Positions 40,927 through 64,000 of a stretch of DNA of 64,000 bases are shown here, piece after piece (the first letter of the stretch is position 1; the number at the start of each line of letters is the position of its first letter). The DNA is from Falciphora oryzae (Eukaryota > Ascomycota > Sordariomycetes > Magnaporthales > Magnaporthaceae): assembly GCA_000733355.1 (NCBI GenBank), contig JNVV01000043.1, positions 129,392-193,391 on the forward strand, in the 5' to 3' direction. The notes beneath the pieces are model-generated. The model saw only the letters and a list, made by a program, of their open reading frames with translations, was not told the DNA's origin and searched no databases. The position numbers and the translations under genes were made by a program.

Positions 40927-43900
40927 TCAAGAGGAATTTCCAGGAAGTTTTGCGGCGATAATCATCAACTTTTCTGTGACCTTGACCTCCTCGCCTCGTC
41001 GGTCAAGCAGCAGCTGCATCACCCCCTCGCTAAACTTCCCGGCGATAATCTTCGTTAGCTCTTCTGTGACTTCAACCTTTGCTCGTCCGTCAAGCAGCAG
41101 CCGCATCACCCTCTCGCCAGACTCCCTATTCCCTGCGGCCGCTTTAATGACCTCTTTTGTAACTTTAACTTCCTCGCCTCGTCGGTCAAGCAGCAGCCGC
41201 ATCACCTTCTCGCCCTCTTCGCCATACCCTTCATTCCCTGCGGCCGCTTTAACGACCTCTTCTGTAACTTTAACTTCCTCGCCTCGTCGGTCAAGCAGCA
41301 GCCGCACCACCCCCCCGCCATACCCTCCATTCCCTGCAGCCGCCTTAACGACCTCTTCTGTAGCCTTAACCTCCTCGCCTCGTCGGTCGAGCAGCAGCTT
41401 TATCACCTCTTCGCCAGACCATATATTCCCTGCGGCCGCCTCAACGACCTCTTCTGTGACCTTAACCTCCTCGCCTCGTCGGTCGAGCAGCAGCTTTATC
41501 ACCTCTTCGCCAGACCATATATTCCCTGCGGCCGCCTCAACGACCTCTTCTGTGACCTTAACCTCCTCGCCTCGTTGGTCAAGCAGCAGCCGCATTACCT
41601 TCTCGCCCTCTCCGCCATACCCTTCATTCTCTGCGGCCGCCTTGACGACCTCTTCTGTGACCTTGACTTCTTTTCCCAACTGGTCCAGTAACAAGCCAAT
41701 TATTTTGAACCCCATGTCGGCATTGAAACCAAGCTTCTCGATTGTTGTGCTCCCCTCTCCTTGCTCGCATATCCATGCTGCTACGTCGTATTGACCAGCA
41801 GCAGCGCGTTGTACCGTTTCCGCCGTAACGTCCGTCCACGTGCCATTCTCGGCAACCACGTACGCCGTAACTTCGGTTTCAAAGGCAGCCCCTTCTGGAA
41901 CTGAACCGACTTCGTCTTCAAATAACACCACAATAACTGCCCTTCTTCCTGTGCCTTTTGGATTGGACTGCCTCAGCAGGAATGCAGCACATGCCCATTC
42001 CCCATTCTCGATCGCCCACCGCCACGCCTCGGTCTCTCCGATGGGAATGTCGAACTTTGCCCCATTCTGCACGAGGAAATTCGCTGTGGGTGTCTGGCGG
42101 TTTAACAGCGCAGCAATCAAGGGGGTGTGACCGTGCTCATCGAGACGGTTTAGTGTCGCCTTGGCCCCGTGCTGCAACAGCAGTTTGATTGCGCCCTCTT
42201 TCCCCTTTTCCGCTGCCCAGTGCAAGGGTAGGCGCTCACTTTTGTCCTTCGTGAATACAGTCACACGACGATCGTTCAACAAGATCTCCATCGTAGGAAT
42301 ACAGCCTCCAGCAGCAGCGTACGATAGAGGCGTGCGACGGGATGAATCCTCTATGATGGGGAGTGCCCCACTCTTCATCAATATCCCCACGACCGCAGCA
42401 TGTCCATGCTCGGCGGCATAGCTTAGCGGGGTTCGTCCCGAATGGTCTTCTGAGTCAATCGCGGAGCCGATCTCGAGAGCTGCTTTGACGATTTCCTGCC
42501 AGCCTCGCTGGGCGGCCCAGGAAAGAACGGTGCGGCCGTCATGGTGTGCAGGCAAAATGTCGTCGACCCGGCTGATCAGCCAAAGGCTCTCCGTTCGGTC
42601 GTCTCTTGATATTGCGTCGATAACACCGCGGGCGTTCGGTTTGGGCCGAGAATGGTCCGCCGTCCTTTGCGTGAGGTCGGCGTAACGACGCGAGATGATA
42701 GCGACCGAGCTGTTAGGCGGCTGCTTATCCGTCTCTTCCTTCATCCAGGAAATTCCTTTGCTGCTAAACTCTTCTTGGGGTCCATCTTTCCAGAAACGAG
42801 CACTCCGGTAGAGCTCGCCCAACTCCAGCATGGTCGCATCCAATACTCCATTGCCTTGTCCGTCACTTGTTCCTAGTGCGGTCTCCCATGCCTGCTTGAG
42901 GATGGTCTCGGCCTCTTGGAAGTTCCCCTCTTTCCTGCTATTTTCAGCGACGCCGAAAACAGCCGGAAGAGCATCTGTCAAATACAGCTTCGAACGACAT
43001 CTCAAAGCTGGGATGATAACCGAGTACGCATCTTGGGTGGAGCCAAGGCCACTCTCCTTGAAGCACTCCGCAAGACGGGACACCACTTCGTTCGTGAAGC
43101 GAGAGCCTCTGCTTCCTGTCAAGGGTTTTGTTTGCCCTCCGATGGAGTCAAGGCGGGTCGCGATTTCGCAGAGGAAGGACTGATACACGTCGTGGGCGCA
43201 TGTGGCAGAGATGGAATTGCTAACGGTCGTGGTCAAGGCAAACATCTCGGTCGGTGTCTCGGCCGGCGTCTCGGCCGGTGAATCATGAGGGACGATTGGC
43301 CGCCCGTCGTGAGGGGCAATTGGCCAGCCAAAAAGCCGCAGCCGTGATTGATTCGGGCAAGGATTAAGTGAGTCCGCTGTTGTGGTCAAGTGGCGGACTG
43401 TCTCGCCGACTTTTGTCTCCTCGCCTCTTGTCTTGTCGACTCGCGTCTCCCACGGGGTATTGGGGCCTTGTTTCGTGGAATCCGGTCTTGCCGTCCATTT
43501 CTCTGTTGACATCGACCAGGAGAAGTCTTCGATCCAAAGTTTCAAGTCCGTTCTCGCGTTTTCTATGTCCTCTTGAGTGGCTCCAACGGCCACAATCCTG
43601 GACATCGCCACATCTGGTGCCGTCGGCTCCCGGAGTTTGGATTTATGGTCCTCCCCCGTGCGAGGATCTGAAACTATTGACCAAGCCCATAGGCCTACCA
43701 CAGCTTCGAGGTATTGCTGACTCACTTCCCATGCCGTAGACTGCCTGTTATCCTTCGGCCTGTGTAGGGAAAGATCGATTTCGGAAGCCCCCTTGAGGAT
43801 GAGACAGGACTCCGAGTGGTTGTGTTCTGCCGCCTTGGAGAGACAGGACTCTGATTGGTTGTATTCTGCCACATGGATGGTCCAAGGGATGGTGTCGGGC

Positions 43901-45622
43901 TTCCAGTCGGACTTGACCTTCGCGTGAGCGAAGAGAGCATCGGCACTAGACTCGATAGCCTTCTTTAGTTGCCGAGCTTGCTGTCGCACATGCACATGAC
44001 GGTCGTCCCACGCTGTCGATGACCTTGATTTGACTCGCGTTTGCCGGCTCGTCAACTCTGCAAGCCAGGATCGGTAGAAAAATGCTCGTCGAGGATCCGT
44101 GTGGGGCTTGGGCTCGCGATCGACCGGAGGGGAGAAGTGCTTCACCGGACCGGCAATTACCGACCAGAATGTCCTTCCCTCGTCTTTTCCCCCTGGTTTC
44201 TCTTTGGCCATTTCCAAGGCAAGCCAGTCCAGCTCATGGCCCTCAACCTGGTCAAGGCAATCGCGCAAGAGATTTTGCTCCTTGCCCAGACGTTGCGTCC
44301 TCAGGCCCGCGCGGATGATGCTCATAAGTAAAATCGCTCCAAGTTGGAGAACCGAGACGGCCGAATGCATTGCTCTCAGGCCAACGAACTGAAGAACGAA
44401 GCCGGACATGGTGGTGCCAGCAGCAAGCCAAACTCCAAGTTCGGTCTGTTGGTGTACCTTCCACGACGTCGTGTATTTGCGCAATGGGTGTGAAGCATCC
44501 GTGAAGGAAAATGAGTCGAAGGTTTGGTCGCCGACAGTTTGGTTCCCTGGCTGTACCACATAAACGGGAACGGGTCGATCGTTGTCCCGGTCCCTGCCGA
44601 ACACTCTCTCCTCGGTGCTCTTTTCTACCAGCAATGCGCAGGAAAACATGCCGGCACACAGGAGCACGGTTCCGAGCGACATTAAAGGAAAGGCCCAAGG
44701 TTGCGGGAGGCCGTCTTCCTTTGTCCAGCCCAACGTGTAGGTGACAAGACAACCAAACACCACAACGGAAGCTTGTGCGAGGAACCCAGCGGTGGCTGCC
44801 AATCGAATGATGTATTTGGGCGGCTCTCGTATGCCTATGTTGAAGGAGAGATTGGGGTTTAGGGCAAACGTGTCGTCGGAGGTCGGATTCTCCTGCAGAT
44901 TCGCGGCTTCGGAGTCGACCTCATGACGCCTCCGAAGCACCCCCCTTCCCGCCTCCACCAACCCCTTCCACGCCTCCCTAAGCCGCTTCCATGTCACCTT
45001 CGCCCGGTGCTTCCATTCCGCCTCCTGAAGTTCCTTCCACGCCTCCCCGAGCCACTTCCATCCCGCCTTCGCCAGTCTCTTCCATCCCGCCTCCTTAAGC
45101 TCCTCCCATTTGGCCTCCTTGGCCCAGTCCGTTGACGTATTCTTGAAAGGAGTAGATGCCACAGTCGGGCGGCGTTTCGCTGTCGCCGTTCGGAAGTTCT
45201 GCCTCGCGGTCGTGAACAATCTCGAGGATCTTGGGGCGTCCAAACACCCGGACGATGGCGCCGTTGTGGTAGAGTTCGCAGACATCCCGGCTCGTGGACG
45301 AGCACAACTCTGCTTCGGCAATTCCTCCTCCCTCCTGCGCTCGACCGATGAAGGCACGCAACGACGGCCCACCGCATACGCGAATCGCAGACACAACAGC
45401 GGTGAGGATGCCAAGGGGCGCCATTGCGAAGATGAAGTTGTCCCATATTGTTGTCGATTCGCTCAGGAACTGCTTTGTTGCTTGTTCACCGAACAGGGCG
45501 AGAAGCGGCGCAAGATCTGTGACCAAGTTGTTGGCGAAGTCGTCCCACCCATCTGCCTTTACGGTTGCGACCAAGCACGCCAGCAGGAACAGGCGAAGGT
45601 GGATGGAGCTGATTTGCAGCAT
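40927..45622 (-). CDS. large membrane-associated ankyrin-repeat protein with high-identity C-terminal repeats; apparent frameshift near the N-terminus
   Basis: The gene starts at 45622 with a signal peptide (MLQISSIHLRLFLLACLVATVKA), DWDDF-like N-terminus, a membrane segment (NFIFAMAPLGILTAVVSAI) and GGIAEAELCSSTSRDVCELYHNG. That frame closes at 45095. The coding frame continues in a second register, open from 45414, from about TDWAKEAKWEEL onward, so a one-base shift (real or assembly error) lies near 45130-45170. The second register (to 40927) has several hydrophobic segments (44620-44830, 44280-44420), a long middle without a P-loop, ankyrin repeats (42050-42560) and at least seven 30-33-residue repeats of the LLLDRRGEEVKVTEEVVKAA type (40936-41700). 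The architecture resembles fungal accessory proteins related to self/non-self recognition, but no NACHT or effector domain is seen. Confidence 0.75.
40936..41700 (-). repeat. tandem ~96-105-bp coding repeats of the ankyrin protein
   Basis: Seven or more units encode LLLDRRGEEVKVTEEVVKAAAGN-like modules of ~32-35 residues. Two neighbouring units, 41367-41462 and 41463-41558, are identical across 96 bp, while others differ by a few bases. Such identity points to recent duplication or gene conversion. Confidence 0.9.
44944..45125 (-). repeat. 21-24-bp coding minisatellite (W-K-x-L-x-E-A units)
   Basis: About seven units encode 7-8-residue modules of the form WKRLAKAG / WKELQEAE in the ankyrin protein, right after the suspected frameshift. 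Unit lengths of 21 and 24 nt keep the frame. Confidence 0.8.
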
Positions 45623-47349: not shown

Positions 47350-48342
47350 TTAGTCGACATATGTGAAGCCCGTGCGGTGCAGGAGGTTTGCGACACATAG
47401 AGCGCGGGTAAGGGAGCCGATGACGGCCGCATCACAGGCATTCCTCTCTCCAGCACTCGGCTGTATGTCGCCACCGTAGATACGCGAGTAATGACACTTG
47501 CAGCGAGGAGGGGGCGACACTCTCCTAACCAACGAAAGCCAAAACTCTTGGATGAAGTCGATGAGCGATTCCGCAGTCTGCAGACGGATTGTTGAGATAC
47601 GGTCTGGTGGGCGAGGAGTCAGAGTTAGCGTCGTTCGATTCCGGCGGAACGCGAGCCAGTGCCACTTACCAAGGATTCCGGTCGAGTCCAGGTGAACCAA
47701 GTGTGCTTTACGAGGAAGGGTTATGGTAGGGCCAACAGAGGATAATGGGGGCTCCTGTGGCGCTAGCGACGGAGATTTCCAAAGCAAATCTTCGGCTGAC
47801 TTCTTGAGCAAGACGTGATTCCCGAGGACCCAGGCTATCCAAGCGGTGAGGGCATTGTCGATGGTCCCCCCCTGATTCTGGCTCTCGGCAGACTGGCACC
47901 AGGCTTTGGCCCAAGGTCTCAGAGGCTCGGTAATGTCGTACTTGTCGACACAGACACAGAGTTGGTGAAGAGCCGCAAGGCTCATGGAGTCTGGGACATC
48001 CTTGAAACGAGAATGGATGATGCTCAGAATGATCTGGAAAGCCTTTGGGGAGTCTTGGGGAAGCTTCACGATCCAGTCGCCGGCATCTGGTCGCTTTTCC
48101 ACCCACGGCCCATTCAGCATTGAGTTGAACACGGGCGACGTGCGCGAGAGCGTCCGGGAGCAAACCGTGAATAGGGCTTGGTCCGGACCGTCGGCGCCGA
48201 CGAGGAGCTGGAGATCCCCGAGGCCGTCAAATGGCACTACCGTTGCTGGCCGAGCTTCAACAACGCCGCCCGTTGAAGGTGTAGCCGCTAAAGGCGTGGC
48301 TTCCGCCGGGGATTCCTCCCCTTGGCTGTCAGTGCCTGCCAT
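47350..48342 (-). CDS. BTB/POZ domain protein, 308 aa
   Basis: Two exons on the minus strand, 47670-48342 and 47604 excluded to 47669 as intron, then 47350-47603. The 66-nt intron (GTAAGT, internal GCTAACT branch, CCACCAG) is a multiple of three and open, so it can be misread as coding; splicing joins G|AC to give DRISTIRL. Residues ~40-145 form a fungal BTB domain: DLQLLVG, a FTVCSRTLSRTSPVFNSML helix, WIVKLPQDSPKAFQIIL and the ADKYDIT-like CVCVDKYDITEPL. The C-terminal half is a poorly conserved helical region common in Sordariomycete BTB families. These proteins form dimers or recruit cullin-3, but no BACK or Kelch domain is visible. Confidence 0.75.
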   Translation of the reverse strand: MAGTDSQGEESPAEATPLAATPSTGGVVEARPATVVPFDGLGDLQLLVGADGPDQALFTVCSRTLSRTSPVFNSMLNGPWVEKRPDAGDWIVKLPQDSPKAFQIILSIIHSRFKDVPDSMSLAALHQLCVCVDKYDITEPLRPWAKAWCQSAESQNQGGTIDNALTAWIAWVLGNHVLLKKSAEDLLWKSPSLAPQEPPLSSVGPTITLPRKAHLVHLDSTGILGKWHWLAFRRNRTTLTLTPRPPDRISTIRLQTAESLIDFIQEFWLSLVRRVSPPPRCKCHYSRIYGGDIQPSAGERNACDAAVIGSLTRALCVANLLHRTGFTYVD

Positions 48343-48725
48343 CGTGGGGAGCAGTGATCGGCCGCGTGGGGGAGTGGTATATCGCGCGCAGTTGTTTACG
48401 TGTCAAGACACCGCGAGGCTGCTGAAAAGCACATTTGGCTTTCTGGTGTGGCCCCACAATTTTTTGTTGGCTTGAGGACAGAAGGCCTTCGACGCATGCG
48501 ACGAGCTTCGCAACGAATCGAGACCGAACCGGTGACAGGAGCGCCCGGTAAACCGAGTTCCCCATATCTTCATCGGAAAAGTCGCTTCCGGCAACGCCGT
48601 TATAAAGTCGGGCAAATATCGTAACGAGGCCGTTGTACAGCACAAGCTGTCCGGTATCCACCCTTCCCATCTATCATCCACGCTCTACTTCCGCACGATT
48701 ACCATCTCAATTGAAACGGCATACA
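48343..48725. other. promoter side of the BTB gene, no supported gene
   Basis: Only short overlapping frames are present between the BTB start codon and the dynamin relic. Confidence 0.35.
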
Positions 48726-49428: not shown

Positions 49429-51087
49429 GCCTTGAAACTGCTGATCAAGGCCCCTAATACGGCGCCCTCGACTTCGAGCAGGCGGCAGACGTTCAACTAT
49501 CTCGGCTGTGATGGGATCAAATTCCGCCACGGGACGTGTACTGATCTTCAGGTTGGCTTATGGGCTGTTGTTCTCATCTCTCTGCCAATAAAAGGTCGAA
49601 AGGGATGGTCTCAATTTAGTTGTTCTCAGGCCCTTATGCCCCTAATTGCATAATGATTCTAAACCCTCTCCGCTGGATTACAAAGTGGAATATGCCAGCG
49701 CGTTTCTAAAACGGTCAGGAGACTCCGCCGGTGGACGGCAGCAACCAGCGTCGCCGTGGCCGCGTCGACCTTTTCCAACACCGGATCGTCGTCGTCAAGA
49801 AGACAATGGCGCAGGCCGACGACCTTACCCTGGCAGCCCAGCTCGCGAGCCTGAACGCGACCGCCAAGTCCACAGACGCGGCCGTCGTGGCCCTCAACGC
49901 CGCCAAGGGTACCGCGAAGGTGAGGCAGGGCGAGGCCGCCGCCACCACCGCCGTCGTATCCGCCGAGGGGCGCTCGCGGAAATCTCGGCCCTCACATGCC
50001 TCAAGGCCGTCTACACCACCGCCCTAAACGGCGCGAGGCTCAGGCCGTGGCGCACATGCTGAAGCAGCCGGAGGAGACGGCCAAGAGGCTCGTGGAGATT
50101 GAGCTCGAGGAGGCAACTTTTCGCGATCTACACGGCTTGCAGCTTCGCGACCGTCGGCCGTGGTCGCCGCGGGCATCGCTGCGCAACTGCTGGGCTTTTC
50201 CAGACACCGGGACGTACGGGACAAGATCAGACACTGCTCGTGGCTGAAGAGGGCCGAGGGTATGAGCGCGGTGTTTGAGGCCCCGTCCAACAGAGGACTG
50301 GATTGCGGGCTCCGCTGTTTGGCGCCGTGGAAGGAACGGCGCTAAGGCTTCCTTCCCTCGTCGACGCCGGTGCCCATCTCACAAAGCGGATCTTTTGGAG
50401 GATGGCACCTTCTGTGATGAGCACCCTTCCTGAGATGGAGAGAGGGATCTTCTCCGAACTGGGTCGCAATCCCACGCTCGGTTCTCAGCCTCGTAGGCTT
50501 CGTCCCGCCTCCTCGAGGAGCCGGAAGCGTCGCAGTACCAGCCGTTCCTCCGGCTCATCGTGTCGGCCGGGAAGCCCTCCCAGTCCGGGACCTACGAAGG
50601 TAGGCCGCTGGGGCTGCCGTCGTAATAGTCCGACCTCGCCGCCTCGTACAAAAGGTCCTCGCTGCTTCCCCTGTCGACTAAAGAGGCAGCGGCGTCCAGA
50701 TAAGAGCTGCTATCGCACAGGCCCTGGAGCACATACACCTTGTCCACGGCCAGCGTCGCCCTCGCGGACCGGAAAATGCGCAGCATCCGCAGCAGGGTCT
50801 TACTTCGTCTGATCTATACGAGTGTGACCGGCCAGTAAGAGACGGCGAAATACTTTCATCGTCGAGTGCCTGGTGGGACGCGGAAAAGAAAACCACCCAA
50901 AGAACAATGGGATTTAAATGGAAGGGACCTGCCCTACATATTCTGGGGGTGGGACCACCAAGCCGTAACCTTCACCTCGCCGACTACCGCCAGTCGCTAA
51001 TACAAGACTAGCTCAGACACAAGAGTATCACAGCGGCCACCAGATATTTCCAAATCATCCAAAGCCAGTTAGCCAGCCATCCTACCA
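49429..51087. other. decayed region, possibly more pseudogene
   Basis: Protein-like segments appear in different plus-strand frames without an intact gene. One Ala-rich helical stretch lies at 49806-49965, another at 50040-50145 (LKQPEETAKRLVEIELEEA), and a third, open for ~70 codons, at 50793-51014. They are broken by stops and shifts. They could be the decayed tail of the dynamin-like gene or another dead gene. Confidence 0.35.
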
Positions 51088-53029
51088 TCAGACACGCAAG
51101 TTCTGCGAATTTGCCAGCAGAAACTCAAAGCTCGCATTCCTGAAGTCGTCTGTCATCAGGGTGGCCCCATCCCCTGTAAAGTTTAACAACATGTTCCCCT
51201 GGCTCCATCGCGGCCAATCTATAAGCTGGACTTGCTGCGACCGGGGCCTGCCGCCCGTGCTGTTGTTCGGGTCAAGGTTGTAGACAAAGTTGAAGTAGTA
51301 CTGATGGATCACCTTTCTGATCGCGTTGTCTGGAAAGCCGTAAAACACCTGAGCAATGTCTGTGGCATGGAATGTGCCGAGTATGGGCGTACCATGCGCG
51401 TACGTCGCAAGGTAAGACCAAGACGGCGTGTCTGGGCTGTTGAGGCTGGTGAACTTGAGCATGGCCCGTCGCGGCAAAGTGAAGGTCATATCGCCAAGGA
51501 TGGCGGCCAAACGCTTGAACTGAGGGTACAGGTTGTTGCCCGCGCCGGTGCGAAAAGGAGATCCCGCGGCGGGGTCGTCGGGGTATGTAGCCACGAGACC
51601 CCGTATCTGCTGGGGGGAGGCCCCGCGAAAGAACTTCGCGGCCAAGTAGCTCTCGACGTCGACTGTCGTACTAAGATTGCTTTGGAACAGCGCAAAGAGT
51701 GTCCCTTCATCTTCCTGGTCTCCAACGATAAAGGGCACCTTGGCAACCTTGCCCGTCGCTGCAAGAGTCTCGGGCGACTGTGTTAGGACTTTGCCATCGG
51801 GACGCGGGAGATAGGACAGGGCGATCGAATCGAAAGACAAGACGCTGGGCACCGAGTTTGTCGCGCTGAGGAGTTTCTGCCATGGGTGTTAGAGGAAATA
51901 CACCGAACAGAACCAAATATATCTCCGAAATGGCTACGCCTTACCTTGAAGTCCACGCATCGCAAGCATGCCAAAGTGTCTTTTTGGCCGCTGCAGCCGG
52001 CGTTCCTGACGACTGTGTCATACACCTCCTGTCCCTTGGCCGTGTCCACTGGGTCGGCGGGCACAATGGAGCCCGAGTTCATTATGGCGCCGTGAAAGAG
52101 GGACTTTCCTTTGTAGGTGATGTCGCCATCAAACATGATCATCTGGTCGAAGATGGAGATGGCGCCAGCCGACTCTCCCCACAATGTAACCCGGTCGGGA
52201 TCGCCACCTGTGTCGCCAGGGTCGGAATGTTAGCATCGCCGGTCGGCTGAGGTGAAGGCACAAGTCGTGCTCAGGGGGCCGCCTCGGCGAAAATGCTCGA
52301 CACGAAAGACTCACCAAACTCGGCGATGTTGTCCGCCACCCATTGCATCCCAAGTCGTTGGTCCAGAAGCCCGAGATTGGCGCTCCCATCCTGCAGGATC
52401 TCCCTCCCGGGCATGAATCCGAAGCCGCCCACCCTGTAGTTGACGGCGACTACGACCATGGGCTTGCCCACGGCCATCGCATTGGCCAGCAGACTGCTGG
52501 CATCATACATCTGCGTACCTCCCAGCTCAAAACCGCCACCGAATATCCATAGCAGCACAGGCAGTTTGCTGTCCCTCGTCGTGCCTGCCGGTCGCTGCAC
52601 GTTGAGGGTCAGACAGTCCTCTTGGCCGTTCAACGCGGCCATAAACAAAGGCGAGCCCCGCACGAGGTCAATGATGGCGCCGCCTAGACTGGGTTCGTTG
52701 ATGCTTGGGAGGACGAACTGCGGGCATGCCGCTGGAAGAGCGGCCGTGGCTTCAACCCTGCCAAGCGAGCCGGCTAGGGGCTGCGGTGGCTTGAGCCGTA
52801 GCGCACCGACCGGCGGCTGCGCGAACGGAATTCCCTTGAAGGACTCGGTCTTGCCTGGAATGATGCCGAGAAAGGAGTCGGAGCTGCCCACGATGGTGGC
52901 CGCTGGGCTCCGGATAACAACCGTCGGAGAGCCGCCATCGAAAAGCCCTCGTCTGCCAACGCTGCCTGACACCGCAACCGCGGCGCCGCAGAACCACGCG
53001 TACGCCCAAACGAGACACGAAGCCTTCAT
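51088..53029 (-). CDS. secreted type-B carboxylesterase/lipase (Candida rugosa lipase-like), 588 aa
   Basis: Three exons on the minus strand: 52315-53029, 51945-52207 and 51088-51876, with introns of 107 and 68 nt. The start at 53029 was chosen because it gives a standard signal peptide ([22 protein letters not shown]); the frame is open upstream. The oxyanion-hole element [10 protein letters not shown], the [11 protein letters not shown] motif, and GESAG with Ser251 identify the family. Glu383 (QEDEGTLF) and His496 (GTFHATD) complete the triad, so the enzyme looks active. It should be extracellular and hydrolyse carboxylic esters such as lipids. Possible N-glycosylation sites (NNS, NLS, NFT) are present. 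Confidence 0.92.
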
Positions 53030-53689
53030 AACACTTTTAGCTATACTGGGAGAAACGAAGGACGAAAACAAAGAGGCTTTGTGATGGCTTACACGGGCAG
53101 AGGCGCTTGGCAAAAATTAAAAGCTTGGCCGATCATAAGGTGCTTCATTTTGCAAAGCCGCCGGATTCCAAATCTGCTGAGAGGCTGGTTGCGATTGGTG
53201 CTCCGTAACTGGAAGTGTGATGGGTCTGGAATCGCTCGCAAGTCTCTATCTCCAAACAGCTGCCTACCTTATGATTACACGCCTGATGCTGGGATTTGCT
53301 TCACCTTGCTCAGCCATCCGGCCACAAACCGATGTGCTAGGAATTGTACTCGAACACGAGTATGATTCGTGCCTTTTTCCTTCTTTTTCTTTTTCTTCCC
53401 TCTTTGGCGCCTTAAAATCAAAGGGCACGTCTCGTCTGAACTTCCCAGCCAACCGTTTGCTCAGCAAAGCATTGTTATCATGCGCGGCCTCTGCTGCTGT
53501 CTCAAAACCCACCGCCCGCACAAAATATGTTTCGCGCCGACTTCGCCACATCTCGCCGGCCGCACCAGCCCCTGGCCGCAATGCTGGAGGTTGGCCAAGC
53601 AAGTCGACCGGGCCCCCGCCTGCGCGCGCTGATGGTGCACGGCAGCCGGCTGCTGCTGACGGTCGACAAGGACTGCAATCCGCTCGATT
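53030..53689. other. lipase promoter side, no supported gene
   Basis: It contains the promoter of the lipase gene. Plus-strand frames at 53217-53891 and 53527-54213 are likely shadows of decayed minus-strand coding sequence and have no motif. Confidence 0.35.
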
Positions 53690-54300
53690 TAGAGGGCGTC
53701 CTTTTCAGCTTCGACAAGGTATCCGAACCGGGGCCACAGCTGCGCGCGTACAAGCACGACGACGCCGGCTCGGCGCTGGCGCTGCAGCTGTATTATGTCG
53801 GCAGGGGACGGAAAGTGCGTCCCCGCCCCGCCGACATGATGGAAGGGGTACTGCCAGAAGTACATCGATTCGCGCTGCGACCGGTCCATGAGCTGCCGCT
53901 GCCGCTGCCGGATGGTGTCCGCCGACTTGAAGGGAAGGTGGAAGCCGAAAACGCGGACTGGGCTCAGCGGGAGCGGGGTGGGAAGGGAGATGAGCGCCAG
54001 AGCGTGCAGGAGCGCGGTCCGCTGCAGGCGCCGGCCATAGGTGATCTCCGTGGCGGCGTAGGACCGCAGCGAGGATACGGAGGGGCAAGGGGACGGGTTG
54101 CTGGTGGAGTCCTGGAGCTGCGCGTCGGTGTAGGAGAAGGGGAAGCTAGCGTTCTCAAAGGTCGGCTACGCTGTCTGCGAGGGAGGGGAAAGCGTTTGGC
54201 AGCGAGGAGATAAGGCCTGGCTCCGTGACGGGCTCGTGGAGTATCAGGAACCCGCCATAAAGCTCTTGAGGTGGCGGACGGTTGGGGCGTTTCGGGCCCG
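53690..54300 (-). pseudogene. possible broken unknown gene
   Basis: Minus-strand frames read as natural protein but in pieces. A segment from ~54265 (FLILHEPVTEPGLISSLPN) loses frame near 54155. The next segment (FENASFPFSYTDAQLQDS to the FWQYPFHHVG area) runs to a stop near 53690. A segment upstream of 54265 lies in yet another frame. No family is recognised. Codon use and amino-acid composition suggest past coding rather than chance. Confidence 0.35.
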
Positions 54301-55704
54301 CGCAGGAGTAGGGTTTCTCTCCACCACCCTCTTCCGGCGAGTTTGATTCTTGCTCGACCGGCCGCCCCGCAGGGTTTTAGCGTCCTGCCCCTGACCGGTC
54401 TTATTGCTATTGGGCTGAGACGTGGGAGCCGGATCGTTCTCGTTGCCGTGTCCGCTCTCGGCTGATCTGCGCGCTAGGGCCCACTAACTCACCTAGCACT
54501 CCTCGCGCACTTTGCTTTACCAAGTCGCTATTTGAAATATACTGCGCCCCTTTTCGCAACCCTATCCTCCTCTCTCGCTCCCGCTTCTTCGGCCCAGGCG
54601 GATTGCTCTGCGGCGCGGTTGCCGCTGGGCTTCTGACGCTGAAGCTCGATTTTGCCGCCGACGTAACCGTGTGGTCCAGTCCCGGCAGCTCGCCCTCCTC
54701 GCCGGACAGCGATTGGTCGCTCGCCGTGCAGCCGCCGCCTCGATACCGCGCCCGGCTCTCCGATATTGCTTTAGGTCCAGGTTCCTGTCGAGTTCGGAGC
54801 CGTCATCGTCGTTATCGAACCCCCATACATTTTTTTCCACTATTTTGGTCCCGCCCGCCCTATTTCGATAGCGAGCGCTTTTTAGGGCTGACGGTGCGGG
54901 CTTTGACGCGGGTCAGCCAGAAAATCTGCAAGGCGGCGCGGATGTTAACGCAGTCGAGGGCAGTACAATTGAGGGAGCAGAAAGATGGTATTCGGAGTAG
55001 GTTGGGCCTGACCCTGCAGAGATTCGGGATATCTCTGGGGGATCCACCTTGTGGAGCCTCCTCCCTTATCTGGCGATAAGGGTCCATCTGCCGTGACAGC
55101 GATCTGTTTTGTGGTAAGGGATTTGGTTCCGAAGGTTAACGTTTTAAGGTTAAAAAGCCGGACGGCGAAAGCGTAAAGGCGTGTTAGGAAACGCATAATC
55201 TCGTTTTAGAAGAGGGCAAAGGCGAAGCGGGCGAAAAGGAGCTCGGGGGCGAGGCTTTGGAAGGTTTGGGAGGCGAGGTGTCACGTCCAGTAGGGCCTCT
55301 TACTGCAGATAGAGAAGTGTGAGGGTCCAAGACGTGTTTACAACGAGCTGTTCCTACTCTACGAGTACTTCGAATCTGAGGAAAAAGGAGAAAGAAAGCA
55401 AGTGCCAGGCGCGTGCCAGGCGTCTGATCGGGGCAGTCCTTGGCCCGTGCGATCGCTCCATGGACCTGTGGGTCCGGCGTTCCCCGGGCCGGCCCCGGCC
55501 CGTTGGGTCGGGCTCTGTGCCTGGCCGAGGCCGCCGAAGCCCCTCAACCGGGCCATAGCCCGTTGCATCCAGAAACTTGAACTCTTTCCAGTGGATTACA
55601 TCAACCACCAAAGGTTCCACAGATAATGTTAGTCCGTCTCCAGTTGTCTGGGAGTTGAGCTCAGACACCCTTCACCTCAGCAGCTATTTACATGATGTCA
55701 ATGG
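54301..55704. other. no supported gene; probably decayed repeats
   Basis: Mixed GC- and AT-rich patches with short frames on both strands. Part of it (55450-55560) is a GGCC/CCGG-rich stretch. I see no coding or structural signal that I can defend. Confidence 0.35.
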
Positions 55705-57339
55705 TTAGCCGAGTTCGATCTCTAGCGCCTTAGCAACTTCGCTTGACCCCATCTGAGACGCATCCGAACAGATTGCCAGGGTAGCCATGGTTAAGAGCAA
55801 GAGTTCACAGGCAGCGACAGCCTGGTTCGCGGGGTCCGGCATGTTCTTTGGCAGCCCTGGGCGCCGGATCTTTGTGGCAAACACGTGAAGCTTCCAACCC
55901 TGGAGGATCTTGAGCAATAACATGTGCTGCCCGTACGGGAGCGATGGGTGTGGCCCTATGCCGCTAGTGCCTGCGCCGGCTTCCGCAAATCCGATGCAAG
56001 CAGTCCAGGCATCGGCATCCACAGGAATCCTTTTGCGGTTCTTGACCGTCTGGCACCAAGCCATTGCTTGAGAGGTCCCGGTGATGAATTCGGAGCTGAT
56101 GTGGACCGTGTCTGGCAAAGGGAGCTCTGGGCGATCCGCAATAACCGTGGCACCGTTGGGACCCTTTCGCTGCAGTGTCTGATAGGGATCGCGCCACCAG
56201 TGTCTGATGCACCAGAGGAGAGCTGCAGCACATGCGCCGTTCTGCTCGTTGGAGAGTTCGTTCCTGGGGAAGGTCCGAACACACGATACCAAGCAAGGCT
56301 CACGGTCTTGGAGCAGTCGAAAGAAGGAAACCTGTCCGGCGTCCAACTGTCCTTGCAGGGCGGCATCGTTGCGAACAAGTTCTTCCGCCCAAGAGGTGAA
56401 TCTTGCCTCGTCCTCCTCGTCGTTGAGGACAAGGACGGGAGGACTGAGTTGCCGAGGCCACGCTATACGTCTCGAGCTTGAACCGCCATCAGGCGTTCCG
56501 CCGACAAGGTCGAGCTCGAGCCTGCCCGGAGAAGGGACACAACCACTGCTCCACACGGCATCGGCGTAGATGGACTGGGCTGTCTGCTGCGACATCTCCT
56601 CGAGGATGTGGTACCGGCCGTTGGGCGAGCCGCTGAAATGGGCTAGCCGTGTGGGTCGATCGACGCCGGCATACTGATCTAGGTAGATGGAGGCACCGCC
56701 ATTGGTCATGGTGATTCGCGTCCCGCTGATCTCGATATTCCGCAAGCCCATTGCTCGGGCAAATCCCCACAGCGAGTGTAAGTTGGTCACCGCGTTGGCG
56801 GGCCGGATCGCGCCGTCGCAGGCTAGAGCGCTGGCTCCTGTCAGGAGAGGCCAGTATGTACGGGTTATGCCGCACATATCCATTGCGTCGGACCAACAAG
56901 CCTCGGACCTCTTTCTTGTCGTCCCGCGAACGGCGTACATGCGCCCCGTAAAGCGGCCTCCCCCTGTGGCGATGGATTGCGTCGCCGATTCGACAAGCCG
57001 GTCCCTCACGCGGCGGTCGAGGGTTCCACGCCCTTCCCCCGTCGCCTCGCGGCGAAGGCAATCTTCTAGTGCACCAACCGTGATAAAGGGCACCGTGAGG
57101 ACCATTGGATCTCCGAAGGGCGAACGGATGCGGAAGAAGCCGAGGATCTCGAAGGCTACGCCCCTCAGTTGCGGCCATGTGATGGCCCATGTTCCGATCG
57201 CCAGTTTGTCCGTCTTGCCCTTTCTTCTCGCCTCGATAGATTGTTGGATGTTCACTTGGGCGAGAGCAGCGAATAAGGCCAGGATAGAGATTGCCATGGA
57301 CGCTGTGGCTATAGCCGTCCCGGTATCCATGTTGACCAC
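55705..57339 (-). CDS. hypothetical protein with N-terminal membrane anchor, 544 aa
   Basis: One uninterrupted frame of 544 codons starts MVNMDTGTAIATASMAISIL; residues ~8-30 form one hydrophobic segment, followed by a basic stretch (EARRKGKTDK), so the bulk is probably cytosolic. The remainder is soluble, with an acidic DDEEDEARF-like run (NDEEDEARF) near residue 310 and a Cys/Trp-rich part (ALLWCIRHWWRD) near 375. No catalytic motif or named domain is recognised. It may be an accessory protein specific to filamentous ascomycetes. The next gene on the right (IspE) is divergent from it. Confidence 0.7.
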   Translation of the reverse strand: MVNMDTGTAIATASMAISILALFAALAQVNIQQSIEARRKGKTDKLAIGTWAITWPQLRGVAFEILGFFRIRSPFGDPMVLTVPFITVGALEDCLRREATGEGRGTLDRRVRDRLVESATQSIATGGGRFTGRMYAVRGTTRKRSEACWSDAMDMCGITRTYWPLLTGASALACDGAIRPANAVTNLHSLWGFARAMGLRNIEISGTRITMTNGGASIYLDQYAGVDRPTRLAHFSGSPNGRYHILEEMSQQTAQSIYADAVWSSGCVPSPGRLELDLVGGTPDGGSSSRRIAWPRQLSPPVLVLNDEEDEARFTSWAEELVRNDAALQGQLDAGQVSFFRLLQDREPCLVSCVRTFPRNELSNEQNGACAAALLWCIRHWWRDPYQTLQRKGPNGATVIADRPELPLPDTVHISSEFITGTSQAMAWCQTVKNRKRIPVDADAWTACIGFAEAGAGTSGIGPHPSLPYGQHMLLLKILQGWKLHVFATKIRRPGLPKNMPDPANQAVAACELLLLTMATLAICSDASQMGSSEVAKALEIELG

Positions 57340-57759
57340 TCCTTTTTTTCAGTCGGCTCGGATAGTATACAAATAATAAGGAATCCAATGATTCTGGATT
57401 TTTTTCTCCTAATATACGCAGCCGCAGAGGAGAGAGGCTGCTCCAGGCGAGTACCACCTCTGGCCTTATCAACCAAGCCAGGGAATGGTACGAGTACTAG
57501 GAATTCATGGTAAGGCTGCCGGAACGCCTCTCACAGGCTGGCGATAATCGACTGGCTCCCGGCTGAAGCGCAGATATGTGAAATTTGTTCATGTCATGCT
57601 TCCCGATTGGATTGCAATTGTGAAGCACGCGGGCGCAAATGTGCAATTCTTCTTGCGGGAGGTGGCTGCATGAAGCTGCCCTCCAAGTTCACCGCCACTT
57701 CTCAGCTAAAATCAGGCAACGACCTCCATCTCAGTAGAGCCGTCTCAGGCGAGCAGATC
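57340..57759. promoter_or_regulatory. divergent promoter region (544-aa gene / ispE)
   Basis: About 270-420 bp separate the two divergent starts, depending on which IspE start is used. It presumably holds both promoters; no discrete element is identified. Confidence 0.35.
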
Positions 57760-58725
57760 ATGGCAACGAAATCGAGCGAAAGCCGTACGCAAGGTCCTCG
57801 GGACATTGTCGTCCGTGTCCCGGCAAAGGTCAATGTATACCTCCAAGCCGGCCCGGCCCGCGATGACGGCTACCACGACATAACCACAGTCTACCAGGCA
57901 GTTTCACTCTACGACGAGCTGCATATCGGTTTCGCCAGCACCGCACCCAGCCTGTTCATGACGATAGCCGGTGAGGGGGCAGAGAAAATTCCGACAGACG
58001 GCCGCAATCTCGTCCTCAGAGCTGCCCAGGCGCTTGCGGCCGAAGCCGGGATCGAGGCTCGCGCTCGCTTCCACCTGCAGAAGTCCATCCCCGTCGAAGC
58101 CGGGCTCGGTGGAGGCAGCGCAGACGCCGCCGCGGCCCTTGTCGGTTGCAATTCGTTGTGGCGGCTAGGGTTCTCGAAAGAGTCATTGATGAAAATCGGG
58201 GCCCAGATCGGGGAGGACGTCCCTTTCTTGATCCATGGCATGATGGCGTTCGGCAAGGGGCATAAGCAACCGTTGGAGAGCATCTCAACCGGAGACTCTA
58301 CTTGGTATTGGGTCCTGGGAATGCCGCACTCGGGTCTCGCTACGAAGGACGTCTTCGTGAGGTTCGACGAGCTGACGCGTGAGGCCGAGGACGGCGACGA
58401 GTACGGCAGGCGCCTCGAGGCGTGCCTGACGACGGATTGGGGACGCAGAACTCCAGAGCAGTTGGCGGGGCTCATGTGCAACAACCTTGAGGCCCCGGCG
58501 ATCTCCTTGCTATCCGATATTGCTTCTGCTTTGGCGGCTGGTCATGCGGCGGAGGCTCTGTCCAGTGTCATGACAGGGTCCGGGTCGACTTGCATATTCC
58601 TAGCCAAGGACGAGAAGCACGCCGAAGACCTGGCTACCCGCCTCAGGTCGACCGGTCTGTTTCGCGACGCCATCAGGGCAGCCGGCCCTGTTTCCGGAGC
58701 ACTGATTCTGGATGGACAAGACTAG
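57760..58725 (+). CDS. ispE: IspE-type 4-diphosphocytidyl-2-C-methyl-D-erythritol kinase (GHMP family), 321 aa, bacterial origin likely
   Basis: A single exon. GHMP-kinase signatures are complete: VRVPAKVNVYL with Lys23, the ATP-binding PVEAGLGGGSADAAAAL (Gly-rich loop 115-125), GEDVPF with the catalytic-type Asp153, and the C-terminal MTGSGSTCIFLA (271-282). The details (DDGYHDITTVYQAVSLYDE, the WYWVLG...GLATKDVF...FDEL block) match actinobacterial IspE. IspE phosphorylates CDP-methylerythritol in the MEP isoprenoid pathway, which fungi lack. The frame stays open upstream to ATGs at 57670 and 57607; I chose 57760 because it gives a bacterial-size enzyme. Absence of introns and of fungal homologues of the pathway points to horizontal transfer. 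Native substrate is unknown: another phosphoryl acceptor is possible. Confidence 0.88.
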   Translation: MATKSSESRTQGPRDIVVRVPAKVNVYLQAGPARDDGYHDITTVYQAVSLYDELHIGFASTAPSLFMTIAGEGAEKIPTDGRNLVLRAAQALAAEAGIEARARFHLQKSIPVEAGLGGGSADAAAALVGCNSLWRLGFSKESLMKIGAQIGEDVPFLIHGMMAFGKGHKQPLESISTGDSTWYWVLGMPHSGLATKDVFVRFDELTREAEDGDEYGRRLEACLTTDWGRRTPEQLAGLMCNNLEAPAISLLSDIASALAAGHAAEALSSVMTGSGSTCIFLAKDEKHAEDLATRLRSTGLFRDAIRAAGPVSGALILDGQD

Positions 58726-58830
58726 AAACACACCCACAAACGGACAATTCACATCGCTACCCTTCCTCTGGATACACGAGGGCTACGGATTCGCCGTGCC
58801 CTCATAGGCTTTCAATGAATATTCACCTAT

Positions 58831-59926
58831 CTATGACCTGGATGCGGGTGATACAGGCACGGGCAGCTGCATCGTCAGCCTCGTTACGATCTGGATGTAA
58901 TCCGCCTCGGTCTCCGGCGTCAGAATCCCATGCCTCACAAAAAAGTCAATCATGACCAGCGCGCAGTTCGGCTTGAACTCGCCGCCCTCCAGCGCATCCC
59001 GGACCTGCCCCACCGTCCACAGATAGAACGCGGCTACCTCTCCATCGTGACCCGGTTCGAGCTTCATGTCCTCGGGCACCTCGGCATCGTACACGTACAG
59101 CACCGTCGGCGCGATATACCCGGCCTCAGGGTGCCTCCTTACGTACGAGACGAGCCCCCGGGGGCGGGCGTGATGCCTCGTCCAGGAGGGCGGGAGAGAA
59201 GCCTCCTCCTCCGCCTCAGCCAAAATGCAGTCGAACGGCGTGTCAGCGGCCTTGACGCCCCCGGCCACCGAGGTGTCCAGCATGTTGGGATACGTGAAAA
59301 TGTGTGAGTTGCGGCGCGCGATCCAAATCCGGAGCTCTGGCGCGGACTCCGCTTCGCCCCCTTGCCCGCCGGCCCCAGACTTGCATGGCGTGAGGGCCGC
59401 AGTGTTGGTCCGACTATAGGTGTAAGCGACCAAGTGGGCTCCCCGCGAGGCTACGCCAAACAACGGCGTCGGGAAGCGCTCCACGTGCACCGGCTGGTCG
59501 GGATAGTTGGCTCCCAGGATGGGGTACAGCTCGCTGTGCTCGCCGTGCACGATAGCGAAGACGTTGGCATCGATGGCGGCGGATACCGTCTTCGCGAACG
59601 CTTCGCTACACGCCCTGCCTGTGTTTTTGCCGCTTGAGCTGTCGTGAAGCTGAACGGAGCGAGACGCGGTGTCGATAGTAAACTCTCCGGCCCATGGCAT
59701 CTGAGCGACCACTGACGGGAGCATGAAACCGTGTGCCCGGTTGTCGTGAGGCAGGAGGAGCCGGAATAGGTTATCATACTCGAAATCCTGAGGAACGCTA
59801 GAACCGGAGACTCCGTGAGTAACGAGGACAGCGGTAGTGCTGGGTTATGCGTGAGTTTGCTTACTTGCTCACGGCGTTTATCAAGTCGAGAAACGTCAGC
59901 CGTGCCTTTGGCGCTTGCGAATCCAT
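58831..59926 (-). CDS. Nudix hydrolase, thiamine-pyrophosphokinase-related type, 342 aa
   Basis: Two exons on the minus strand, 59865-59926 and 58831-59797. The 67-nt intron (GTAAGC donor, TTCTAG acceptor) restores the expected N-terminus: LTFLDLINAVSN then VPQDFEYDNLFRLLLPHDNR and HGFMLPSVVAQMPW. The Nudix box is at ~195-220: AGGVKAADTPFDCILAEAEE, slightly atypical because Asp and Ala replace the usual Glu and Arg, but the EAEEEA core is intact. Relatives of this type (yeast YJR142W-like) hydrolyse damaged thiamine diphosphates. The gene is convergent with ispE, with ~105 nt between stops. Without the intron the frame starts at an internal Met (59724) and loses ~45 residues. Confidence 0.85.
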
Positions 59927-61697
59927 TCCTACCTTGATCTACCATGAGCCAACTGGTAGCATCCAGGCGTTTGAGAGTTTGTGACCGCGTTCGGGGATGT
60001 GACGCCGAAAACCTAGGTGCCTGCCTAAGGTACTTGTCACTTTCTTCGACATTCACGACAAAAGTCGGGGTTGGCCGGGGACCCTCAAGAGCTCCGTTCG
60101 CGGAATCCCCCGGGTATGGCGGGACTGGCAGGGCGAACCGTGGGGGCCCCGCTAACCGCCGGTCCGCTCCCCAGCCAAACCTTTAGAGTGGGGCACCCGA
60201 ACTTGGCCATTCCCCCGTCTTGGTCGTCAAAAAATCACACAGGCGGCCACAGGCAACGATACCACCTTTCCTTTGTACTACCCGGACTAACAGTAGGCTC
60301 GTTGGTTCCCCGCAACCCCGGCCGGGCCCAGGGGNNNNNNNNNNNNNNNNNNNNNNNNNNNNNNNNNNNNNNNNNNNNNNNNNNNNNNNNNNNNNNNNNN
60401 NNNNNNNNNNNNNNNNNNNNNNNNNNNNNNNNNNNNNNNNNNNNNNNNNNNNNNNNNNNNNNNTTTCCGGCACACTCGCCGGCCGAACGCACTACTACCA
60501 CCCGCAGCGCTCACAACGCCGGCGTATATACGCCCTGTTGCCGATCGCCCGCTCACCAACAAGGAGCGCCGGAATGCGGCCCGACCTCCGTGTGCCTTAG
60601 GGTTTAATTTGTTAGCCGCCTCGATAGCAGCACTATAGCCTCGTGCAGATAAGCTTAGGTAGCGCTAGCACGCTGTATGCCCCTAGGGAGGCAGGGACTG
60701 GTAAATCCCGACTAAACGACGTTAAATATACTCGCTCACTCACTCACTCACTATGAGTATAGGCAAAACAGGCAAGCAAGGCCCCCTAGAAAGCAGTTAG
60801 CTGCACCTGACCATGCGTTCCCCCGCCCGCCGCCTCTTCAAGCCGGGAAATCCGGTGTGTGCTGCTGCATCTGGGTCCAGTCAAACGGTCGCAGCTGGCG
60901 TGGTAACGAAGCCGGGAATACGGAGCCCTGGAACCCTGCGACCGGCCACCAGACGTTGTGAAGCACCGCCCGCAACCCTTGATGGCGAAGCCATTTTCCC
61001 ACTAGACGTGTTTGGCCAAGCAGCTCCGCCACGTCTACTCTTTCGGCCGGCATCGAGGTGCATGCTTCCACGCCCCTACACTGTAACGTTTGGTCCCTAC
61101 TTTGAATTAAAATGTAGATGATTCCACGGGCACCAGGGTCTTTCCCGGCTACGCAGTTGCTGTTGGGGTACAGTGTCAGGGGAATGGAATCCAAATATTC
61201 GCCAACTTGGAGTTCTCCTATCGTTTGAGCCGAGCTTCTTTGCGCGGGAAGAGAGTCGCAGGCAATGGCGCTATATGAATCTCGCTGGGGTGGGGCAGGT
61301 CCGGCCCGCGCGGGCGTTTCAGCCATGCTGCCCCACCCCCGCACCTTAGAAGGGCCCCATAGTGGGGTCAGGCTGCCCTGTTGGGAGGATCGAAAAGGCT
61401 GGCGCCTGATCATGGTTGAACGCTTTTTGGTTCCCACCCTAAAACACTCAACCATCACATTCCCCCCATATTCCAGGCGCAAACAGACAACGAGCCACGT
61501 TTCCTGAAAGATTTTCCGTGGCTTATTTCACTGAAAAAGTTCCATCCCAGAACCAAAACGCCACCTAGGTATTTAAGCTGCTGTTAAGCGGCCTCGCCCT
61601 AGAAGTTATCCGAGAACCCGCACTGAGGTAGCCGTTTGGAGTTCTCGTAGTCTTCGTTAGATAACGGAATATCGTGGTGCCAGCCTCATACAGCAGC
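59927..61697. other. intergenic with assembly gap, no supported gene
   Basis: It contains an N run, a (CTCA)n stretch near 60732-60752, and a 214-codon minus-strand frame (60838-61482) without any motif, which I do not accept. The last part is the promoter of the BTB gene at 61698. Confidence 0.4.
60335..60463. other. assembly gap (129 N)
   Basis: A run of N in intergenic sequence. The left flank is CCCCGG-rich. Confidence 1.
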
Positions 61698-62603
61698 ATG
61701 GATCTTGATAACCCCGATCTACCGTTCTCTAAGTCCGAAAAGAAGGCGAAGAAGGCAAAGAAGGCAGCAGTGGAAGAGGAGCCGGCCCCAAGCACCACGT
61801 CGTATGGTATGGATAACCCGTCAAAGGAGCTCATGGGAGCCTTGAAACGGTAAGGTCCTATTTTTTTCCTATACTCACCCGAATTTGTCCCGCAAGTGCT
61901 AAAAAAAAAAAAAAAAAAAAAAAATCTCGCCTTTAGGCTTCATTTTAGCGGAGAATGGTCGGATTTGACCATCTCGTGCGGCGGAAAGCAATACTACGTG
62001 CACAAGTCAATCATATGCCCACGGTCCAACTTTTTCGCCGCAGCGTGCCGTGGCAACTTCAAGGTGGGAATTGTGGCTTCGAATCTCGACTGCTTGATGG
62101 CATCAGCTAATGTTGCTTTACTATCGTTCCTTTCCCAGGAGGCGCAAGAAGGGAAGATCAGCCTTCCAGACGATGACCCCCAAGCCGTCGATTTGATGGT
62201 GTTCTACTTCTACCACCTCGAATACGATGTCTTTCGATCGCGAACAGAAGTCGGCCCAGATGGAGGTCCCGATGCCGATAAAGGCTGGGAGCTTGTTGTC
62301 CATGTGAGGGTTTACGCCCTTGCGGAAAAGTACGGTGTCGCTGGCCTCAAAGACCTCGCTTTTCGCAATTTCACGACCGCGGCCCAGGCCTATTGGAACA
62401 GCGACAGTTTCCTTAATGCGGCACGTGAGGCGTATGCATCCACCCTGGAAACTGATCGGGGACTGAGGGATGTCATAACGACAACTTTCTATATGCACAA
62501 GGAACTGCTGAGCAAGAAGGAGGCACAGGAGATGATCAAAGAAGTGCCTATGCTATCGTTCGACCTGCTCATGCATGTACATCGGGAAAGAAGTTACTGG
62601 TAG
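61698..62603 (+). CDS. BTB/POZ domain protein, 247 aa
   Basis: Three exons: 61698-61849, 61937-62063 and 62139-62603, with introns of 87 and 75 nt, frame-consistent throughout. The N-terminus has a Lys/Ala-rich run. The BTB domain starts with FSGEWSDLTISCGGKQYYVHKS, then SIICPRSNFFAAAC, and continues after intron 2 with KISLPDDDPQAVDLMVFYFY and a VYALAEKYGVAGLKDLA helix, which is the standard fungal arrangement. Intron 1 holds a ~21-nt A-tract next to its acceptor. No second domain is visible. Function is unknown: such single-BTB proteins are expanded in filamentous fungi. Confidence 0.85.
61903..61924 (+). repeat. poly(A) tract in intron 1 of the BTB gene
   Basis: An almost pure adenine run, which is prone to length error in sequencing, sits 12 nt before the intron acceptor. 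Confidence 0.85.
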
Positions 62604-63747
62604 GCTGGGGAATTCTCGCATACAGGGAGCCAACAGCTAGAGGATCCCAGATAGGTAGGCATGCTCTTTCGAATTTCCTCCGCATTTTCCTTCCAAGTAC
62701 TTGCTAAATGAGATTCCAATGTTCTAACTATACACCACCAAGCTCGTTCAAAAGCTAGAGTACCGGGGCAAGGCCGGATGGGGAGCGCTGTAGGACATCG
62801 GTGTTCCGAGCAAGCGTGAAGGCATTGTCCAGCAGCCACAGGCAGGAGATCGCAGAGAAGAACAAGCAACCAATTTGGGCCAGAAAAGATGCCCAGCGTT
62901 ACGCCCAGTGCGGCAGTGCGTGTTCAGGCTTCGTCCATCTGGGACGCAGTTGGTTCGCATGCCATCGTCAGACGCCCCTGGAGCTGGTGGCGCCAGTCGT
63001 CATCAGCGCAGTCGTTTATGGCCGCGCGGCGGCCTTCTGCCCTGATAATGCTGCCGGCCGGAAGGGCCAGTTTTCGGCTCGCTGGCCGGGATTCGTCAAT
63101 CAGACATACTGTACTATCTTAACCCATGAAGGGCCCGATCCGTCGACTTTGCCAACGCGATAGGCCTTCGTATGATCTGGATCGACCAGGAGTGCGTGCC
63201 GCAGCCGACCGAGGAGAGCCCGTAGAAGGGAAGCTACCAGCGGATTGGCGTCCAGGCAATGGATATTGTTTACAATAGGGTTGTAATAGCGGTGGGTTTC
63301 CATAAAGGGCCCGCCGCCGCTCCTCGGCCGCATGCAGGTCCTGGACGTCGCCTAAACCCTGCACCCGACCTTGTCGGCCAACAAAAACATCCTCAAAAGT
63401 TGCTACACAGATTTGCCCGGACGGTTCGGCAAAGGACACGCCATAAACGCCGCAATAGCACTTACGCTGCTCAAACACGGGAATGTCGCGATACGTGCAA
63501 CCGAATCACTATCGTGTGTGCTGATATGTGCCGCTACGAGGTCCGCACGATACGGCCAAAGTGGCGGCGCGCTACGCTTCGCTACGCACTGGCGCCCTTC
63601 CGCCCGCCGTACTTAATTCGGACCTGTCCCTACTTATTCAACAAGGGCTAGGAACGGTGGTGTCCGCTTGCACCTAGACGGTCGACAGGGAGCTGGATCT
63701 CAGTAACGTCCGGGACCAGTACGCCGAGAAGTGGTACAGTCTGTAGA
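62604..63747. other. probably decayed coding sequence
   Basis: No intact gene. A plus-strand frame at 63371-63616 includes DLPGRFGKGHAINAAIALTLL and GNVAI, reminiscent of a degraded Walker A plus following helix (GPPGTGKT type) of a helicase or other P-loop ATPase. The match is weak and the motif itself would be broken. Confidence 0.3.
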
Positions 63748-64000
63748 TGGTTTGCGTGAAGCCAGAGACCAAGACCGCTAAAGACCCACAGGGGCAGGCC
63801 GTACTTCTCGATCGGCACTTGATTAATACCGACGACGAAGGATTTCAGGCCAGGTTCTTAACGGAGCTCGGCCGCAACGGTGGCGTCTTGCCGGGGACTC
63901 GCCGCGGGTTGAACCCGGATCGCATTGCATTTAAGATGCGTCTCGATGCCGACTACATCGAAAATAATCCGGACCTGCGGCGGCGCCTGGCCGAAATCGT
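63748..64000 (+). CDS. partial open frame running off the window end
   Basis: From the ATG at 63748 the frame stays open to the last base (84 codons). The residues look like genuine protein: VLLDRHLINTDDEGFQARFL, ELGRNG, IAFKMRLDADYIENNPDL. A TAG stop lies immediately before the ATG in the same register, and the region upstream (DRELDLSNVRDQYAEKWYSL) reads in the same frame, so this could be the 3' part of a larger broken gene rather than a new start. Family not recognised. Confidence 0.35.

Follow-up and report, generated by a model that had tools for sequence, protein, structure and literature searches.

IspE, the CDP-methylerythritol (CDP-ME) kinase, is regarded as diagnostic of the MEP pathway and, because hosts lack it, as an antibacterial and antimalarial target. 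For the Escherichia coli enzyme, Lys10 and Asp141 are said to contact the methylerythritol part of the substrate, and Asn12 lies near the CDP-ME contact site (PMC11541488, PMC12902931), with the cytidine held by His26 and a Tyr25/Phe185 stack (PMC11541488). The Plasmodium falciparum IspE, a true MEP enzyme, is reported to be without an equivalent of His26 (PMC11541488).

Many fungal proteins are already annotated automatically in databases as IspE, and entries from Penicillium, Aspergillus and Lojkania labelled either IspE or "Ribosomal protein S5 domain 2-type fold" belong to the clade described here. In the open-licence literature, to the extent that its text was available, no account was found of a fungal IspE clade, its origin, its pocket or a linked neighbour. 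The one paper found there to mention such a gene in a fungus states that the endophyte Aspergillus sp. Gbtc_2 has a contiguous CDPMEK and MECPS (IspE and IspF) unit (PMC8301071, 2021); the part available mentions this fungal gene and contains no analysis of origin, pocket or gene neighbours.

An IspE-family gene among fungal genes

The window, by which is meant the whole 64,000-nucleotide stretch of Falciphora oryzae DNA that was analysed, contains an ispE-like gene lying between two neighbours on a 368,281-base contig:

55705..57339, minus strand: orphan gene of 544 aa, divergent from ispE
57331..57759, no strand: divergent intergenic stretch of 429 bases that separates the start codon of the 544-aa gene from that of ispE
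57760..58725, plus strand: ispE-like gene, 321 aa, intronless
58831..59724, minus strand: Nudix hydrolase gene, 297 aa, convergent with ispE

The ispE reading frame runs from 57514 to 58725 uninterrupted by stop codons, bearing out the first-pass annotation of an intact, intronless gene, and the four motifs quoted there (PAKVN, GLGGGSADAAA, GEDVPF and GSGSTC) are all present. That annotation had the frame right in placing the ORF at 57607-58725, but its start, the first TTG of the frame, is not favoured. The ATG at 57760 is preferred as the probable start because the conserved sequence of the homologues begins at about residue 16 of the resulting 321-aa form, and because an A sits three bases before this ATG; an in-frame ATG at 57670 may be an alternative. 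The codon use of ispE (GC3 0.71) is inside the range of nine other host genes (0.62-0.82), and against a pooled host reference its z is -3.8, with six other host genes at -1.8 to -18.9.

Judged by score and predicted fold, the product is a member of the IspE family. It exceeds the curated cut-offs of both NCBIfam models, PRK03188 (306.5 bits against 286) and TIGR00154 (165.6 against 138.7), and the locus is the sole TIGR00154 match in the 50.2-Mb genome. The Pfam GHMP N- and C-terminal domains are present, as is the glycine-rich ATP loop GLGGGSADAAA. The top solved structure by sequence is the Mycobacterium tuberculosis IspE (3pyd, E 9.1e-64), with the M. abscessus enzyme also among the best, and a fold search with an AlphaFold model of the 321-aa protein (pLDDT 93.6) again places Mycobacterium IspE structures at the top, including the CDPME complex 3pye (TM 0.86/0.91).

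The likeness to the actinobacterial enzymes (3pyd/3pye and M. abscessus 4dxl) extends to full-length homology, at about 38-41% identity in the fold search, a common fold and common pocket residues. Actinobacterial IspE has GSGP in motif III, whereas the fungal clade has GSG[ST]; GSDVPF is replaced by GEDVPF in the window protein; on the cytidine side, the residue after Thr is P in the actinobacterial enzymes and K in most of the fungal clade; and positions 168-169 are RG in the former and HK in most fungal rows. Unlike its actinobacterial counterparts, the fungal protein also occurs in a host without detected MEP partners.

Other genes of the window are of fungal type, with matches to RTP1, DBR1, Myb, BTB, ankyrin and carboxylesterase proteins. 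Two BTB/POZ genes flank the locus (47350-48402, minus strand; 61854-62603, plus strand), and 40927-45462 (minus strand) encodes an ankyrin-repeat protein of 1511 aa in which several DUF7104 repeats occur. No tRNA was found in a search of the window, and an Rfam search of 50000-64000 returned no matches. Runs of N, whether gaps in the assembly or sequence that was withheld, are located at 37114-37305 and 60335-60463, the second starting 0.6 kb past the Nudix gene, and ispE and both neighbours are within the N-free sequence between them.

An assembly chimera or bacterial contamination is barely conceivable as the source of the gene. The second N gap, 1.6 kb to the right of ispE, is the one feature that would fit such an origin, but the sequence that joins ispE to the genes on either side is free of N. 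Moreover, among the matches listed, the protein is 56-60% identical to its fungal relatives and at most 46% identical to bacterial rows, and the 544-aa gene is found on the IspE contig in other fungi as well. Bacterial DNA joined at either flank, which the first-pass annotation had named as a danger to its proposal, is contradicted by the N-free sequence through both neighbours, which are fungal genes. Chimerism and contamination were rejected on the basis of the N-free flanks, the fungal type of the sequence and the linkage to the neighbour.

Probable actinobacterial origin and pathway context

The closest named relatives among the best 120 matches are from Lojkania, many Penicillium and Aspergillus, Stipitochalara, Orbilia, Cladophialophora, Cladorrhinum and Mytilinidion. 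Identity of the fungal-clade rows to the window protein is mostly 45-60% among these 120 matches, with most of the named ones at 46-60%, and the best named bacterium listed is Actinoallomurus, at 46%. The gene is therefore a member of a clade spanning several named fungal genera, and not the oddity of a single fungal chromosome that it had been taken for.

A careful tree was built from 48 rows: 45 of the rows left after 13 near-duplicates of the 120 had been dropped, the window protein and two outgroups (WOR-1 and Clostridia). In this tree, 27 fungal-clade rows form one clade (support 100/99), and in a larger tree 56 fungal rows do so (SH-aLRT 98). Only where rows carry a source name is this result firm, as metagenome rows were assigned to fungi by tree position. 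No named bacteria fall inside the clade. Its sister is a pair of bacterial-type rows (92/93), and it lies inside actinobacterial diversity at 88/59, where the bacterial rows are those among the best 120 matches and the outgroups are two loci (L004 and L005), both distant and the only IspE relatives returned by a scan of genome contigs.

The placement of the fungal clade inside actinobacterial IspE thus has moderate support. Together with the family scores, it upholds the initial description of an actinobacterial-type IspE, and the nesting of the clade among actinobacteria supports the horizontal origin proposed with it. The gene does sit in an old fungal GHMP clade, which had been named as an outcome that would count against transfer, but that clade is of IspE type and is itself found among actinobacteria. 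The tree is most simply read as one old transfer from an actinobacterium, after which the gene may have been inherited with many losses or passed between fungi. It is classed here within the IspE family, in a branch found in fungi, and not among the MEP-pathway enzymes.

A whole-genome check for ispD, ispF, ispG and ispH, as the first-pass annotation had suggested, was extended to DXS and DXR; none of the six gave a match at E <= 0.001 in the 50.2-Mb genome, and so no other MEP enzyme was detected. Of 14 control genomes, 9 to 13 gave matches in each of these searches. Weak matches to single exons could be missed on account of introns, but HMG-CoA reductase, which is present in the genome, was found by a like search. 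With the partner enzymes undetected, the genome does not present an MEP pathway in which this IspE would operate.

Five further GHMP loci were detected, with galactokinase, homoserine kinase, mevalonate kinase, phosphomevalonate kinase and mevalonate-diphosphate decarboxylase as their best names, some of these matches covering one exon and falling short of the curated cut-off. The fungal ERG12, ERG8, ERG19 and GAL1 proteins have the GHMP superfamily fold in common with IspE, but are separate genes in this genome. Since all five loci are accounted for and there are no detected MEP partners, IspE appears to stand alone, and its use as a replacement for a native GHMP kinase is unsupported. There are three matches to CTP_transf_like domains in the genome, and therefore some cytidylyltransferase chemistry is available.

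The substrate pocket

Residue numbers of the E. coli enzyme were mapped to the window protein through an alignment. Conservation was counted in a set of 56 fungal-clade and 52 bacterial-type rows, from which 13 near-duplicates of 120 had been dropped. Each column is counted over the fungal-clade rows that have a residue at that position. The codons concerned are:

57826..57834, plus strand: K23 to N25 (K23 = E. coli Lys10, N25 = Asn12), methylerythritol/substrate motif
57871..57876, plus strand: Y38 and H39 (E. coli Tyr25 and His26), cytidine pocket
58216..58218, plus strand: D153 (E. coli Asp141)
58354..58356, plus strand: F199 (E. coli Phe185), cytosine stacking position

Equivalents of all the CDP-ME contacts (Lys10, Asn12, Tyr25, His26, Asp141 and Phe185/Tyr) are present in the window protein. 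Throughout the fungal clade, K23 and N25 are each conserved in 54/54 rows, Y38 and H39 each in 55/55 and D153 in 55 of 56, and the F199 column holds Phe in 51/56 rows and Tyr in the other 5/56. His26 is reportedly missing from the working P. falciparum enzyme, yet its equivalent is kept in fungi, which argues for a CDP-linked substrate. As judged from the alignment, the conservation of the pocket as a whole argues for such a substrate over a free sugar or prenyl alcohol.

Several positions beside these contacts are changed in the fungal clade. S152E is fixed in 55 of 56 rows and P196K occurs in 48 of 56; GG/T at 161-162 is mostly M/M; R168 is mostly H; and A117G is also found. In motif III, GSGP has become GSG[ST] in 55/55 rows (49 Ser, 6 Thr). 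The window protein has GSGS and so departs from the GSGP pattern, whereas all 52 bacterial rows carry the Pro; this residue is, to our knowledge, not catalytic, and its loss was not treated as grounds for exclusion. The fixed changes beside the active site could reflect an altered substrate.

Linked neighbours and possible functions

The 544-aa neighbour probably starts at ATG 57330, judging from the starts of its homologues, giving 541 aa. It is single-copy in the genome, and 25 relatives were detected at E <= 0.001 among the candidates scored. The protein gave no matches in Pfam, NCBIfam or the PDB sequences and no clear match among PDB folds, and a scan of viral contigs with the family gave no relative. 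Its N-terminal helix is hydrophobic, as is another stretch near residue 507, and it is probably membrane-anchored. The family core is rich in conserved Cys, Trp, Asp and His, and the family also occurs in five named basidiomycetes.

Among the matches listed, 7 of 66 fungal-clade IspE rows are on the same contig as one of the 25 orphan-family rows, as compared to none of 54 bacterial-type rows; these calls are based on equal "longest contig" values, which show a shared contig and not adjacency. The seven contigs are from Lojkania, Mytilinidion, Cladophialophora, Cladorrhinum, Orbilia and two metagenomes. All five named species that are in both match lists appear to have the two genes on one contig, which seems to be a new observation; for Orbilia, adjacency is indicated by successive locus tags (TWF730_009040 and 009041). 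For eight paired loci, the IspE and orphan gene trees agree on two groupings (support 91/95 and 95/96; 88/87 and 100/99), with most other branches open, so the two genes have long moved or remained as a pair. An obligate pair is argued against by the matches listed, in which Penicillium and Aspergillus have IspE without an orphan row and the five basidiomycetes have the orphan protein without IspE.

The Nudix neighbour matches PF00293 (25.4 bits against a cut-off of 21.1), and the catalytic glutamates of the box are present. Its Nudix box, of pattern GGVKAADTPFDCILAEAEEE, has Ala at a position where the consensus has Arg. The domain is shared with the YJR142W-type/DUF4743 fungal Nudix hydrolases; many of its homologues carry PF15916, whereas the window copy has no PF15916 match. 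The genome has two further copies, at C56 and C18, which match it at 44% and 35%, and the window copy is a diverged third; the nearest named row among the matches listed is from the fungus Thozetella sp. (59%).

In a count that took 58 of the 120 listed Nudix rows, Nudix and orphan genes share a contig at three other loci (contigs of 6901, 7329 and 127052 bases), and Nudix and IspE do so once, on the 127052-base contig of Lojkania, the only listed case with all three genes. When 51 of the 120 listed rows are placed in a tree with the window copy, the window and Lojkania copies are not sisters, and the case for the Nudix gene as part of an IspE-orphan unit is weak. The 6901-base contig (orphan row P0241, Nudix row P0121) holds the nearest relatives of the flanking genes, at 80-85%. 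Neither it nor the 7329-base contig has an IspE among the 120 matches listed; on the former, ispE may have been lost, broken or not called, and this relative may be able to do without an intact copy.

The interpretation that we favour, at somewhat better than even probability, is that the product is a functional kinase of GHMP type whose substrate is a CDP-linked polyol, acting outside the MEP pathway and captured once from an actinobacterium by an Ascomycete ancestor. An ancestor of several Ascomycete lineages would have taken up ispE long ago, in a single event. The enzyme would move the gamma-phosphate of ATP onto a hydroxyl of an alcohol held through cytidine diphosphate, and this alcohol would be CDP-methylerythritol or a similar CDP-linked C4 or C5 polyol supplied by a different cytidylyltransferase, and so may well be something other than CDP-ME. 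The orphan protein would act in the same process, and the adjacent Nudix hydrolase might cleave the product; enzymes of the Nudix class cleave nucleoside diphosphates linked to another group. Against this interpretation, the genome search found no enzyme known to make CDP-methylerythritol. A larger proposal, in which the captured IspE, the new membrane-anchored orphan family and a Nudix hydrolase present in certain lineages form an Ascomycete CDP-polyol pathway unrelated to isoprenoid precursors, is rather improbable.

The same missing source of CDP-ME would be explained if the kinase had been repurposed for a free alcohol (a sugar alcohol or isoprenoid alcohol) or for isopentenyl phosphate, leaving the cytidine pocket as a relic. 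Isopentenyl monophosphate is reported to be a substrate for bacterial IspE, a kinase with a Nudix enzyme beside it would suit the balancing of a monophosphate against its diphosphate, and the fungal-specific S152E, P196K, R168H and motif III changes point in this direction. A relic pocket should drift, however, and the equivalents of Tyr25, His26 and Phe185/Tyr are nearly invariant over 56 rows, making repurposing unlikely. Repurposing towards a sugar alcohol, a terpene or a prenyl intermediate, as suggested at the outset, is similarly unsupported, given near-invariant cytidine and methylerythritol contacts, although the fixed changes next to those contacts may still signify an altered substrate.

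Conservation of the pocket is equally compatible with CDP-ME scavenged from plants or bacteria, or with a partial MEP route in species that have IspF, whose product, methylerythritol cyclodiphosphate, would serve as a signal or intermediate. We know of no fungal uptake of a CDP-linked compound, and no IspF match was found in the F. oryzae genome, so that this is quite improbable here; the CDPMEK and MECPS stated for Aspergillus sp. Gbtc_2 speak for it (PMC8301071), and an IspF in a fungus would change the reading. Finally, the patchy occurrence of the gene among the matches listed, and the 6901-base contig of the nearest relative for which no IspE is listed, would fit a non-functional passenger undergoing loss. 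This is highly improbable, as the catalytic and pocket residues are nearly invariant though most rows are only 45-60% identical, and the frame is intact in F. oryzae.

Because the cytidine pocket has been kept and an orphan protein is a frequent neighbour, without the rest of the pathway, the fungal IspE probably has an unrecognised job. A captured IspE with an intact cytidine pocket in mevalonate-using fungi would mean either a second natural role for this enzyme or an overlooked fungal CDP-polyol. The presence of IspE alone is then not evidence of the MEP pathway, and the linked orphan gene would offer a direct genetic handle on the process in which IspE takes part.
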